64,000 nt of DNA from Phycisphaeraceae bacterium (GTDB lineage Bacteria > Planctomycetota > Phycisphaerae > Phycisphaerales > SM1A02), in the NCBI GenBank assembly GCA_019636735.1, contig JAHBWY010000006.1:186001-250000 (forward strand), read 5' to 3'. The notes under the pieces were generated by a model that was not told the origin of the DNA, searched no databases, and saw only the letters and a list, made by a program, of their open reading frames with translations. Of the stretch, positions 57,794-63,536 are shown in pieces. The first letter of the stretch is position 1, and the number at the start of each line of letters is the position of its first letter. The position numbers were made by a program, and so were the translations under genes.

Positions 57794-60088
57794 TCAGCGT
57801 CCCGCCCCGGTTGTGCGAGGTGGCGCGGCAAGCTCGCCGCGGAAGACCTCGATGGCGGGCCCGCTCATGCGCACCGAGCGACCGACACCGGGCCATGCGA
57901 GTTCGAGCGCTCCTCCCGGAAGATGGGCCATGATCTCCGGCCCGCTTCGTCCGGTCAGCACACCCGCGACACAGACGGCGCTCGCACCGGTCCCGCAGGC
58001 GAGCGTGATCCCGCTCCCCCGCTCCCATGTTCGCATGCGCACCTCGCGCGGCGAACGAATCGTGACGAAGTGCACATTGATCCGCTGCGGAAACCACGGA
58101 TGGCGTTCGAGGTGAGGCCCCACGCGCTCGAGTGGGATCGCGTCGAGATCGCTGGCGTAGAGCACAACATGGGGATTGCCGAGGGAGACGAGCGTGATCG
58201 CCGGTTCAAGGCCCGCGAGGCGCCGCCACGATCCGTCGAGCTCACCGAAGAAGGCCGCTGGAAGAGGATGATCGACCACGGGGCTTCCCGCATCGACTCC
58301 CGGAATTGCGGCGGGAATGCGGCTCATCGCCAGGATGGGCTCGCCCATCGAGACCGACGCCGTCGACACCCGGCCATCGGGGCCGAGGCGCCAATCGATG
58401 TCGAGGACTCCGCGCGCCGTCTCGACTCGCAGCGGCTTCGCTTTCGACCGACCGCTGTCGACGACGAACTTCGCGACGCAGCGAATGCCGTTGCCGCACA
58501 TCTCGCCTTCACTGCCGTCGGCGTTGAACATCCTCATGCGGGCATCGGCGCGCTCGGGTTCGCTCGGACGACTGATGAGAATGAGCCCGTCGGAGCCGAT
58601 GCCGAAGTGACGATCCGAGACGCAGCGTGCCATGGACGCAGGGTCATCGATGCGCTCTTCGTCCGCATCCACATAGACATAGTCGTTGCCGAGACCCTGC
58701 ATCTTGACGAACTTCATGGCTGACTCCGTGGGAGTCATCTTAGAGCCGCCATCCCGAAGGGGCGGAAGCGCGATGAGCCCATCGAGCAGCGTGACCACGA
58801 TGGCAAGGACAATCAGCCCCTGCATCCAGCGCATCTGGCGATCGACGGGCAGATTTCGCTTGGCCACGCCGCTCAGCGCCGCCAGGCGGCGGCGACGCGA
58901 ATCGATCGATCCATGCCGGAAGGATGGCCGTGTCGGCGGGATGCCGTTGGCATAGGCGACGATCGCGAGCGCCCGGCGCATCGCCTCGACCGCCGCGGGC
59001 TCGATCGTCTCACATGGTGAAAGGGACACGGCCGCATACGCGTCGGCCTGGCGCTCGCAGAGGCGCGACATGGTCCCGAAGAAGAGAACCACCAACCCAA
59101 GCAGGAGCCCGAGCGCCACCCACTCCCCTGCTGCACCCCTCAGCACCGGGGGCGCCCACCACTCCATGAGCGTGGTGATCCCGACTCCACCTGCGCCCAC
59201 GCCGCCAATGCACGCGCCGGCCAGCCATGCCATGTGGCGATGCCTGAGGTGTCCCGCTTCATGGCCCGCGACCGCAAGGGCCTCTTCATCCGTCAGCGAG
59301 TCGATGAGCGCATCAGTCAGCAGCACCCACCGCACGCGCGGCAGGATGCCGAGGGCAACGCCATTCATCATCGTGCCCCCGGTGTTCCAGAGGCGCACCT
59401 CGCAGACACGGACCTTGTTCTTGGTGAAGAGGGCCTCCATGCGCTCGCGAAGGTCACCGCGCTCGGGCAACGGTGCAGTCGAGAGCGCGGGAATGACGAG
59501 CGCGGGCGCCAGCAGGAGGGCCGCAATGGCGCAACCGAGGCCCACCCATTCACTCCATGCGCTCCCCGCCGGCATGATGCGAGCCACGACCTCCTGTGCC
59601 GCGAGCACCGTTCCGACGGGCACGAGCAGGAGCGGCAGGAAGATCCGTGCCTGGGTCAGGACGATGGCCACCCGCGACATCGATGGCGTGTGCCGCACTA
59701 CGAACGCCGAGTGCGCCGACCACGCGATGATCATCGCGGCGATCGCCGGCGCGATCGTGATCGCTTCATCGACGAGGATCCAGTCGCCGATCCACTGCTG
59801 CACCAGATCGAACCAGCCGAACCCGAGAATCGCCGCCGCCAGCCAGAGTGGAGCAAACGCGCTCACCAAGCGGGTCCGTCGCGCCGATCGACTCCAAGCG
59901 CGGTGTCCCGCCCCGGGGCGATTCCAAGGCAGCACACTTGCGCCGATGGCGAGCAGCGCCACACCGATGGTGCCGGCGAGGACCAGAAGCAGCACCACCC
60001 CATCGCCGAGCGCTTCCGGCTCGATCCATGTCGCCACGCCGGCTCGCCGCAACACCAGCGCGGCGATGAGGACGAAGAGAGCCGCCAT
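57794..60088 (-). CDS. dapF: Fusion of membrane M48-type metalloprotease and diaminopimelate epimerase
   Basis: This 764-residue open frame contains two known modules. Residues 1-457 form a membrane protein with several helices, a zinc motif HEAGHLRH at about residue 275 and the third ligand in C-E-R-Q-A-D-A-Y, which is the HtpX/M48 pattern. Residues 458-764 (from ATG 58717) are DapF: M-K-F-V-K-M-Q-G-L-G-N-D-Y, the catalytic Cys in G-E-M-C-G-N-G-I-R-C (Cys531), and A-C-G-T-G-A (Cys698). DapF epimerises LL- to meso-diaminopimelate for peptidoglycan and lysine. No stop separates them. An internal ATG may also make free DapF. TAAGAT lies about 15 bases before that ATG. Confidence 0.85.
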   Translation of the reverse strand: MAALFVLIAALVLRRAGVATWIEPEALGDGVVLLLVLAGTIGVALLAIGASVLPWNRPGAGHRAWSRSARRTRLVSAFAPLWLAAAILGFGWFDLVQQWIGDWILVDEAITIAPAIAAMIIAWSAHSAFVVRHTPSMSRVAIVLTQARIFLPLLLVPVGTVLAAQEVVARIMPAGSAWSEWVGLGCAIAALLLAPALVIPALSTAPLPERGDLRERMEALFTKNKVRVCEVRLWNTGGTMMNGVALGILPRVRWVLLTDALIDSLTDEEALAVAGHEAGHLRHRHMAWLAGACIGGVGAGGVGITTLMEWWAPPVLRGAAGEWVALGLLLGLVVLFFGTMSRLCERQADAYAAVSLSPCETIEPAAVEAMRRALAIVAYANGIPPTRPSFRHGSIDSRRRRLAALSGVAKRNLPVDRQMRWMQGLIVLAIVVTLLDGLIALPPLRDGGSKMTPTESAMKFVKMQGLGNDYVYVDADEERIDDPASMARCVSDRHFGIGSDGLILISRPSEPERADARMRMFNADGSEGEMCGNGIRCVAKFVVDSGRSKAKPLRVETARGVLDIDWRLGPDGRVSTASVSMGEPILAMSRIPAAIPGVDAGSPVVDHPLPAAFFGELDGSWRRLAGLEPAITLVSLGNPHVVLYASDLDAIPLERVGPHLERHPWFPQRINVHFVTIRSPREVRMRTWERGSGITLACGTGASAVCVAGVLTGRSGPEIMAHLPGGALELAWPGVGRSVRMSGPAIEVFRGELAAPPRTTGAGR

Positions 60089-61992: not shown

Positions 61993-62229
61993 TCAGCCGG
62001 TGCTCTGTTCGCCGGCCGGTCGGATCTGCCCGATCACTCCGGGGCCAGCGTCCTCGGCCGCGGTGATCTGGTCGGCGACCTCCCGTCGGTGGACCGGCAC
62101 CTCGCGGGGGAACTCAAAGGCGATTCGCACCCGGTCGCCCTTGATGGTGGCTATGCGCACGACACCCAGCGGAGCGGCAGGGTTGCCGATCACCACTTCT
62201 TCACCTTCTCGGCGTGTGATGACGAGCAT
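61993..62229 (-). CDS. csrA: Carbon storage regulator CsrA
   Basis: CsrA is a dimeric RNA-binding protein that binds GGA in hairpin loops and blocks or changes translation. The 78-residue protein begins MLVITRREGEEVVIG and continues with I-A-T-I-K-G-D-R-V-R-I-A-F-E-F-P, then V-P-V-H-R-R-E-V. The V-P-V-H-R-x-E-V segment near the C-terminal end is an RNA-binding surface. A GGAGG ribosome binding site precedes the ATG, and a GGA within it may be self-bound. Its promoter and leader are described separately. No flagellar genes are in this window. Length is a little longer than E. coli CsrA. Confidence 0.95.
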   Translation of the reverse strand: MLVITRREGEEVVIGNPAAPLGVVRIATIKGDRVRIAFEFPREVPVHRREVADQITAAEDAGPGVIGQIRPAGEQSTG

Positions 62230-62277: not shown

Positions 62278-62292
62278 CCGCGATCCATGCGG
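62278..62292 (-). promoter_or_regulatory. Hairpin with AUGGAUC loop in the csrA leader
   Basis: On the minus strand CCGC pairs with GCGG around loop ATGGATC, about 50 bases before the csrA ATG. The loop contains the CsrA-type A-N-G-G-A core. With the GGA in the ribosome binding site it forms a plausible two-site arrangement for autorepression, as known for E. coli csrA. Confidence 0.55.
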
Positions 62293-62365: not shown

Positions 62366-62407
62366 CAAAAACGCCCCTGCACCGGGTTCTAGGCCGATGC
62401 AGGGGCG
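62366..62407 (-). terminator. Intrinsic terminator between mraZ and csrA
   Basis: On the minus strand CGCCCCTGCA pairs with TGCAGGGGCG (10 bp, with a partly paired loop) and is followed by five T residues. It ends the mraZ transcript or the candidate sponge RNA before the csrA promoter. Confidence 0.8.
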
Positions 62408-62600
62408 ACAACGGAGGGGCCGAAGCCCCATGGCGGGCGGGCTGCGCGTCCATGGCGGCCCGTTACTCCCGCACAGGGCCATCCATGGCCTGAGTGCGGT
62501 GGGGATGGGTGGCGATTCCATTCACCACCGGCCCCGAGATTGGCACCCTGATCACACGCCGGGGCCCGAGTCATCCATGACCCGAGCGCAAGCGCTGCTC
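62366..62600 (-). ncRNA. Candidate Csr-type sponge RNA between mraZ and csrA
   Basis: The minus strand folds by eye into a chain of hairpins. At 62565-62586, CTCGGGTC pairs with GACTCGGG around loop ATGGAT. At 62508-62529, GGTGGTG pairs with CGCCACC around AATGGAAT. At 62471-62497, a GCAC/GTGC and GGCC/GGCC stem is closed by ATGGAT. At 62439-62461, GGGC and CGC pair with GCG and GCCC around CATGGAC. A GGGGC-TTCG-GCCCC hairpin follows, then a strong terminator. Four loops show ATGGA, the CsrA-binding core. Of five GGA triplets in the stretch, four are in loops. No promoter is seen, so it may be a 3' product of mraZ mRNA. The 5' end given is approximate. Confidence 0.5.
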
Positions 62601-62667
62601 AGGAAGCGTTCGGAGTGCCCGAAACAGGCCACGGCGAAGTGATGCCGCAGACTGGTCGGGCGCTGAT

Positions 62668-63156
62668 TCATGAGTTCCCCTCGGCGCCATCGGGGCGCGC
62701 TGGAGGCTGTCTGAAGGAGGGACGAGCCCGTCGGTAGAGATCGGCGGTCGCGGGCAGCAGACGCTGCTCCTCGGCCTGCCACTCTTCGGGCGGATAGAGC
62801 TCCAGGTGATCCTTGTTGCCCACGATGACCACGCTTCCGGAAAGCCGGAACCGCTTGGTCATCCAGTCGGGCAGTCGAACCCGACCACTGCCATCGACCG
62901 GCAACTTGGCCGACTGCGAGAAGATCAGCCTCTCGAAGTCGAGGACTTCCTCCTCGGCCAGCAGCGACGAGCCTCGCTGCGACACCCACGCGTCGAAGAT
63001 CTTCTCCGGCCAGAGCCAGAGTCGATCGTTCGGACCCGGCAAGGCGATGAAGGCCTGCCCATGAATGCGTTCGTCCATGCACTCGCGCAGCGCCGACGGG
63101 ATCGCCAGTCGGTTCTTGTGATCGATCACATAGTTGTGCTGGCCGCGAAAATGCAC
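62668..63156 (-). CDS. mraZ: Transcriptional regulator MraZ
   Basis: MraZ is a DNA-binding protein with two SpoVT-AbrB-like domains that normally heads the division/cell-wall (dcw) cluster. The 162-residue protein starts at GTG, reading V-H-F-R-G-Q-H-N-Y-V-I-D-H-K-N-R-L-A-I-P, the MraZ N-terminus. The second repeat includes K-L-P-V-D-G-S-G-R-V-R-L-P. A 30-residue Arg/Pro-rich tail follows. A GTG 42 bases upstream is also in frame. The next minus-strand gene is csrA, not rsmH, so mraZ is detached from the dcw cluster here. Confidence 0.88.
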   Translation of the reverse strand: MHFRGQHNYVIDHKNRLAIPSALRECMDERIHGQAFIALPGPNDRLWLWPEKIFDAWVSQRGSSLLAEEEVLDFERLIFSQSAKLPVDGSGRVRLPDWMTKRFRLSGSVVIVGNKDHLELYPPEEWQAEEQRLLPATADLYRRARPSFRQPPARPDGAEGNS

Positions 63157-63536
63157 GCATCGACGCCTCGGGTGGGACTGGCGATCAATGTACCCCACGA
63201 CTCACCACGATTCAACACTTTTCTCCAATAATGATCCATCCGGGCCACGATCGGCCCCACAACCCCCAGTGGGGCCGCAAGGACATCGCAAGTGGCTTGT
63301 TCGGCCCCCTTCCTGCGGGCCGTGCGGCGCGTGCGGTCGCCCAGGGACGACAGCCGGAGCCAGCCACACCAATTCGTGGCTGAACGGGCCGGTAACCAAT
63401 TCCAAACCGTGATCTCGCAGGCTCTTATGGACAAGACGAGAAAGTGACGCACACTTCTGCCGAGGGGAGTGGCGAACGCCCTGACTGATCATTTCCTGGC
63501 CCACCGGCGCGGCCCCGAGTCGCCGGTACGACCGCA
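63157..63536. other. Intergenic region upstream of mraZ with a strong hairpin
   Basis: This stretch of 380 bases holds no gene. The clearest structure is CGGCCCCAC pairing with GTGGGGCCG over an eight-base loop at 63252-63277, with no T-run on either strand. Minus-strand TACATT, about 30 bases before the mraZ GTG, and CATTAT, near 63228, are possible -10 elements for mraZ. Confidence 0.45.

Follow-up and report, generated by a model that had tools for sequence, protein, structure and literature searches.

RNAs that sequester CsrA have been described mainly in Gammaproteobacteria, and many bacteria that encode CsrA are said to be without them (PMC4894983, PMC13407953). CsrB carries 22 GGA sequences (PMC7652899), and an ANGGAX hexaloop placed directly on its stem is the high-affinity motif of RsmE/CsrA (PMC4005645). 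Messenger RNAs can also antagonize CsrA, as do the flaA leader of Campylobacter jejuni and the fim leader of Salmonella (PMC4894983). TwoAYGGAY (RF01731) and Bacillaceae-1 (RF01690) are computationally predicted CsrA-binding RNAs from outside Gammaproteobacteria (PMC4333381). A search limited to open-licence papers found no report of a Csr sponge in a planctomycete, and open-licence titles and abstracts held nothing relevant on Phycisphaerae with CsrA or on mraZ with csrA and a small RNA.

The window, a 64,000-nucleotide stretch of a Phycisphaeraceae genome, contains on its minus strand a spacer between mraZ and a csrA paralogue (csrA2) that invites comparison with these RNAs. Like CsrB/CsrC and RsmX/RsmY/RsmZ/RsmW of Gammaproteobacteria, it presents an array of ANGGA stem-loops, ends at an intrinsic terminator, and is apparently non-coding; by analogy, several CsrA dimers would be expected to bind it. 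It shares with CsrB/Rsm-type RNAs several ANGGA loop hairpins (three of them firm), compensatory changes in the stems, and a terminator-ended segment that lacks a conserved open reading frame. Unlike those RNAs, it is linked to mraZ and csrA2, appears to be part of the mraZ transcript, and belongs to another phylum. Rfam scans of the window and 20 relatives at gathering and relaxed thresholds gave no usable match and no Csr family at threshold, nor did they report a match to the TwoAYGGAY covariance model. The GacA/UvrY-type box TGTAAG-N6-CTTACA, a control typical of Gammaproteobacteria, is missing from the window with up to three mismatches allowed. Because Rfam homology and this box are lacking, we do not call the segment a member of CsrB/RsmZ; it probably acts in the manner of a Csr/Rsm sponge or of an mRNA-borne antagonist of CsrA. 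It resembles the flaA and fim leaders in being a protein-coding transcript predicted to titrate CsrA as well, but those leaders lie at the 5′ end and have few sites, whereas here as many as 7 hairpins occupy a 3′ segment conserved in dozens of genera. As with TwoAYGGAY and Bacillaceae-1, its CsrA-binding loops are predicted by computation only; those models, which come from other taxa, find no match here. Since these two RNAs were predicted earlier, ours is not the first Csr-type RNA proposed outside Gammaproteobacteria.

The sequence and coordinates given for the mraZ-csrA spacer in the original prediction were verified (Table 1). It had counted four ATGGA hairpins: three are firm, and in the predicted fold the fourth site forms no clean hairpin, its CCATGG pairing with a second CCATGG at approximately 62433–62428. 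The UUCG hairpin and the terminator with five T residues that it placed after them are both present on the minus strand, and the stretch does hold only one other GGA, at approximately 62469. The csrA leader has a further ATGGA site; when this leader is folded as a whole, the fold with the 62292–62278 stem is not preferred, and autoregulation of csrA through that site is conjecture. Elsewhere in the window, a single 764-codon open reading frame (57794–60088, minus strand) combines a Peptidase_M48 domain with a complete diaminopimelate epimerase (DapF).

Table 1. Features of the mraZ-csrA2 region, in order of minus-strand transcription.
Feature	Coordinates	Strand	Description
Probable mraZ promoter and three MraZ-box-like repeats	63187..63217	-	TTGAAT-17-TACATT with TGTTG-N5-TGGTG-N5-TGGGG; -35/-10 pair at 63215-63187 assigned by eye, overlain by the repeats
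mraZ	62668..63156	-	PF02381, E 2.4e-17; start probably GTG 63156
Candidate CsrA-sponge RNA region (mraZ 3′ UTR)	62372..62667	-	Fold z -3.15; conserved strand-specific ANGGA hairpins
Hairpin 1	62564..62587 (62587-62564)	-	GCTCGGGTC-ATGGAT-GACTCGGGC; ATGGAT loop on C-G pair; inner AU-AU pairs possible
Hairpin 2	62508..62529 (62529-62508)	-	GGTGGTGA-ATGGAA-TCGCCACC; ATGGAA loop, 8-bp stem
Hairpin 3	62490-62477 inside outer stem 62469..62499	-	GGCC-ATGGAT-GGCC; outer stem CCGCAC/GTGCGG
Fourth ATGGA site	62449..62453	-	No firm hairpin; possibly masked by downstream CCATGG pairing
UUCG hairpin	62416..62429	-	GGGGC-UUCG-GCCCC type; sequence and predicted fold
Intrinsic terminator	62367..62407	-	14-bp stem 62407-62372, then TTTTT; in most relatives at the corresponding position
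Possible further site in csrA leader	62278..62292	-	CCGC-ATGGATC-GCGG; fifth ATGGA, possible short stem
csrA2 (csrA paralogue)	61993..62229	-	PF02599, E 1.6e-14

The 235-nt stretch has a folding energy of -127.3 kcal/mol compared with -110.9 ± 5.2 kcal/mol in shuffled sequences (z -3.15), and is more stable than 199 of 200 shuffles. We defined strict hairpins as those with A-N-GGA in the loop and a stem of 4 or more pairs, and scanned both strands of 2.18 Mb of the same genome (~64% of it). The scan yielded 713 strict hairpins (0.16 per kb of strand). Four within 300 nt occur at this locus alone, the fourth in this count being the csrA-leader site, which is poorly supported by folding; a sub-cluster of this locus aside, no other 300-nt stretch exceeds 2. 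Nowhere else in the 2.18 Mb scanned are ANGGA-loop hairpins packed as closely as in the mraZ-csrA spacer. A triple pattern of ATGGA alone matches the genome eight times, two of the matches being this locus; the sequence by itself is therefore weak evidence, and the stems are important. The prediction that ATGGA is denser here than chance allows was borne out by the unique 4-in-300-nt count, the fold z score, and, decisively, recurrence of the feature in essentially all members of the family.

Protein searches found the window's csrA paralogue and mraZ in nearly all genomes of the family, mostly side by side. In a first set of loci with adjacent csrA, at least 2 strict hairpins lie downstream of mraZ on its strand in 29 of 30 loci, with 97 sense hairpins and 1 antisense. 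A named set of 80 loci was drawn by the csrA protein alone, nearly all of them metagenome-assembled Phycisphaerales and other Planctomycetota; it partly overlaps the first set, some records being the same contigs. mraZ lies beside the same csrA paralogue in 74 of these 80 relatives, and the mraZ strand carries at least one hairpin in all 74 adjacent loci and at least 2 in 70 of them. Together, the 74 loci contain 209 sense hairpins and 1 antisense, against 0.083 per locus in shuffles; relatives average ~2.8 per locus and have up to 7. A genome of the same genus (G001), whose assembly is too fragmented to show csrA, keeps 3 hairpins in its mraZ 3′ region.

Could such hairpins reflect chance, coding sequence, or the generic folding of G+C-rich 3′ regions? 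G+C-rich DNA folds easily, and a 39-codon open reading frame overlaps the mraZ stop codon (ATGA) in the window. Within 420 nt downstream of the mraZ stop in 34 family loci, however, 105 of 178 ANGGA sites (59%) fall in stem-loops. The opposite strand of these loci has 1 of 42 (2%) and shuffles have 2.6 of 59 (~4%, maximum 8); within the mraZ coding sequence the fraction is 11%. The same test gave no such excess for other pentamers (C.GGA 13, G.GGA 6, A.GGC 5, A.GGT 3). The 39-residue frame was rejected as conserved coding sequence, its best relative having an E value of 0.24 in a region rich in indels. The strand asymmetry of 209 to 1, the shuffles, and the loop-specific excess refute this explanation, to which we assign practically no weight.

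The loops are conserved, and the stems vary while staying paired. Across the 34 family loci the loop context reads C(92%)-ANGGA-Y(85%)-G(80%), matching the published high-affinity CsrA/RsmE motif. In 26 alignable members, with the terminator stem included, double changes fill 77 stem cells compared with 27 in shuffles and affect 13 of 20 stem pairs; 94.8% of the stem pairs are paired, falling to approximately 50% or less when the alignment is slid. Substitutions in the stems are thus compensatory while the C-ANGGAY-G context is kept. We consider it very likely that the hairpins are real, selected binding sites of the CsrA type. A lack of conserved hairpins in relatives was one of the outcomes that the original prediction named as refuting it; the mraZ-csrA spacers of relatives carry conserved, strand-specific hairpins with compensatory changes.

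Gene order bears on what the hairpins might control. In the window, the next gene downstream on this strand is csrA, whose leader has a further ATGGA, an arrangement that would suit a cis element acting on csrA, for example through CsrA-dependent attenuation between the two genes. Among the 74 adjacent loci, however, csrA is codirectional with mraZ in 38 and convergent in 36, and the convergent loci have the same hairpins on the mraZ strand. Since the hairpins occur regardless of csrA orientation, a cis-only effect on csrA is ruled out as their shared function, and cis control is altogether a very improbable account; it could be a local addition in this window.

The position of the hairpins relative to mraZ suggests how they are transcribed. 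The mraZ gene scores below the cut-off of TIGR00242, and because the listed start of its open reading frame (63198) lies inside the MraZ-box-like repeats, the true start is probably the GTG in Table 1. Among 98 regions upstream of mraZ, 91 have at least two TGKKG-N5 boxes, compared with 2.6 expected in shuffles, and 39 have three, compared with none. MraZ in Mollicutes binds AAAGTG[T/G] repeats (PMC8475190), which the TGKKG direct repeats with their 5-nt spacing resemble. A consensus scan at a threshold of 9 of 12 found no match for the mraZ promoter, and such scans, which are weak in this phylum, found no promoter-like site in the mraZ-csrA spacer. rsmH, an rRNA methyltransferase gene that usually adjoins mraZ, is on another contig here.

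An alternative source is a separate small RNA gene between mraZ and csrA, independently promoted like csrB or rsmY, that acts as the sponge. The compact array with its terminator recalls CsrB and RsmX/Y/Z, and the RsmW model gives a weak match on the right strand (21.7 bits against a cut-off of 52, E 0.16). Against such a gene, the scan, of a kind weak in this phylum, found no promoter-like site in the spacer, and the window has no GacA/UvrY-type box. Moreover, the first hairpin follows the mraZ stop within ~34 nt in about a tenth of loci, which leaves little non-coding room, and the gap often measures only 30–40 nt; a terminator follows the hairpin cluster in most named loci but lies ahead of the first hairpin in just 1 of 63. 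We therefore regard a separate gene as unlikely. The short gap, the near absence of terminators between mraZ and the hairpins, and the failure to find a promoter in the spacer make read-through from mraZ the simplest source. The hairpin cluster is most simply read as the mraZ 3′ UTR, processed or not; processing from the mraZ transcript would still yield a separate RNA. The comparisons support the original prediction and, of its two options (a Csr-type RNA, or a CsrA-titrating mraZ 3′ end), favor the second.

The neighboring csrA2 encodes a divergent CsrA. It falls below the NCBIfam CsrA equivalog cut-offs and above that of PF02599, and has a 4-residue insertion relative to E. coli CsrA. The main RNA-contact positions R6, G31, R35, V46, and R48 (R44 of E. 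coli) are kept. CsrA2 constitutes an order-specific subfamily, present in 5 of 6 families of the order sampled and in none of the sampled genomes of the class outside the order. A second csrA in the same genome (CsrA1) adjoins fliW and flagellin genes (L090). FliW resembles the proposed RNA in restraining CsrA, and its gene adjoins the flagellar csrA of this very genome; it differs in being a protein antagonist beside the other paralogue. The flagellar CsrA has Asn at position 55, cited for FliW contact (PMC13407953), and in the alignment CsrA2 lacks that Asn. In four genomes (G002, G006, G017, G027) the only CsrA match is of the CsrA2 type, and 3–7 hairpins are kept; a FliW match is missing in G002, G006, and G017. 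The persistence of the array in genomes with CsrA2 only, three of them without FliW, makes CsrA2, encoded next door, the likelier partner of the hairpins.

The hairpins reach beyond loci in which mraZ and csrA2 are neighbors. Their number per mraZ locus peaks where csrA2 is the neighbor (mean 3.23, n = 30). It averages 1.58 where csrA2 lies elsewhere in a genome of the order, 1.0–1.1 in genomes of the order or class without csrA2, where the strand bias is still present, and 0.39 among other members of the phylum. Hairpins at lower density in genomes without csrA2 indicate that the pairing is not exclusive. We do not claim strict co-occurrence, since the means for "elsewhere" and "absent" do not differ significantly (p 0.16). 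This gradient from family to order and class to phylum suggests that an mraZ-linked CsrA site is older and that a dense array is characteristic of the family where csrA2 and mraZ adjoin. In four loci of family f26, far outside the class (L111, L123, L135, L137), an ANGGA hairpin lies ~185–215 nt after the mraZ stop, and three of them have a second at ~120–140 nt, which hints that contact between CsrA and mraZ 3′ ends may be older. In family f5, which lacks csrA2, the sequence after mraZ (L073, L075, L084, L085) resembles a small conserved reading frame (..ISDRxLLELS..QRLGGxFA..) and has no hairpin array. At the csrA2 locus of G029 (L030), csrA2 is convergent with the gene for ribosomal protein L27; the ANGGA hairpins in that spacer sit in REP-like repeats and were left out of the counts.

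This distribution also bears on whether the mraZ 3′ UTR is a target of CsrA rather than a sponge, with CsrA controlling how stable mraZ mRNA is or how it decays, and titration a by-product. The hairpins could equally mark mraZ mRNA as such a target. They are tied to mraZ and not to csrA: at loci that separate the two genes (L061, L062, L076, L086) the hairpins remain with mraZ, and in most cases no cluster surrounds the separated csrA2. A separate sponge beside csrA2 was likewise not found in most genomes in which mraZ is elsewhere, and L045, considered as a sponge without mraZ, was rejected on finding a divergent mraZ. One or two hairpins downstream of mraZ also remain in class members without csrA2. 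Up to 7 hairpins per 3′ region, densest beside csrA, are however more than a target site needs, and CsrA targets usually have their sites near the ribosome-binding site. We consider the target explanation improbable, though less so than a separate small RNA gene. The three or four sites in the window are few beside the 22 GGA sequences of CsrB, which counts against a sponge; three or four is within the range of RsmX/RsmY.

The reading we favor, and consider rather likely, is that the mraZ transcript holds CsrA through its hairpin loops and so acts as an mraZ-derived CsrA sponge. In this model, the transcript continues from mraZ as a single unit into a ~300-nt 3′ untranslated segment with several ANGGA hexaloop hairpins and stops at the intrinsic terminator. 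Each CsrA dimer, most probably of the neighboring paralogue, would bind two of these hairpins and be kept off its mRNA targets, so that the amount of transcript would set CsrA activity. The transcript is probably autoregulated by MraZ through the boxes over its promoter, which would couple a regulator of cell division and the cell wall to post-transcriptional control.

If this is true, the mRNA of a division-gene regulator itself controls a global RNA-binding protein, through a new RNA family missed by current models, in an uncultured family of Phycisphaerales (Planctomycetota). A broader proposal, on which belief and doubt are evenly balanced, is that a non-gammaproteobacterial family of CsrA sponges is produced from the 3′ part of an autoregulated mraZ mRNA and paired with its own CsrA paralogue, in parallel with a FliW-controlled flagellar CsrA, giving two Csr circuits with different antagonists. 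Whether FliW and small RNAs act jointly on CsrA in any species was described in a 2020 review as still to be determined (PMC7652899). In this genome a flagellar CsrA with FliW coexists with another CsrA beside a candidate sponge, which makes this question directly testable.
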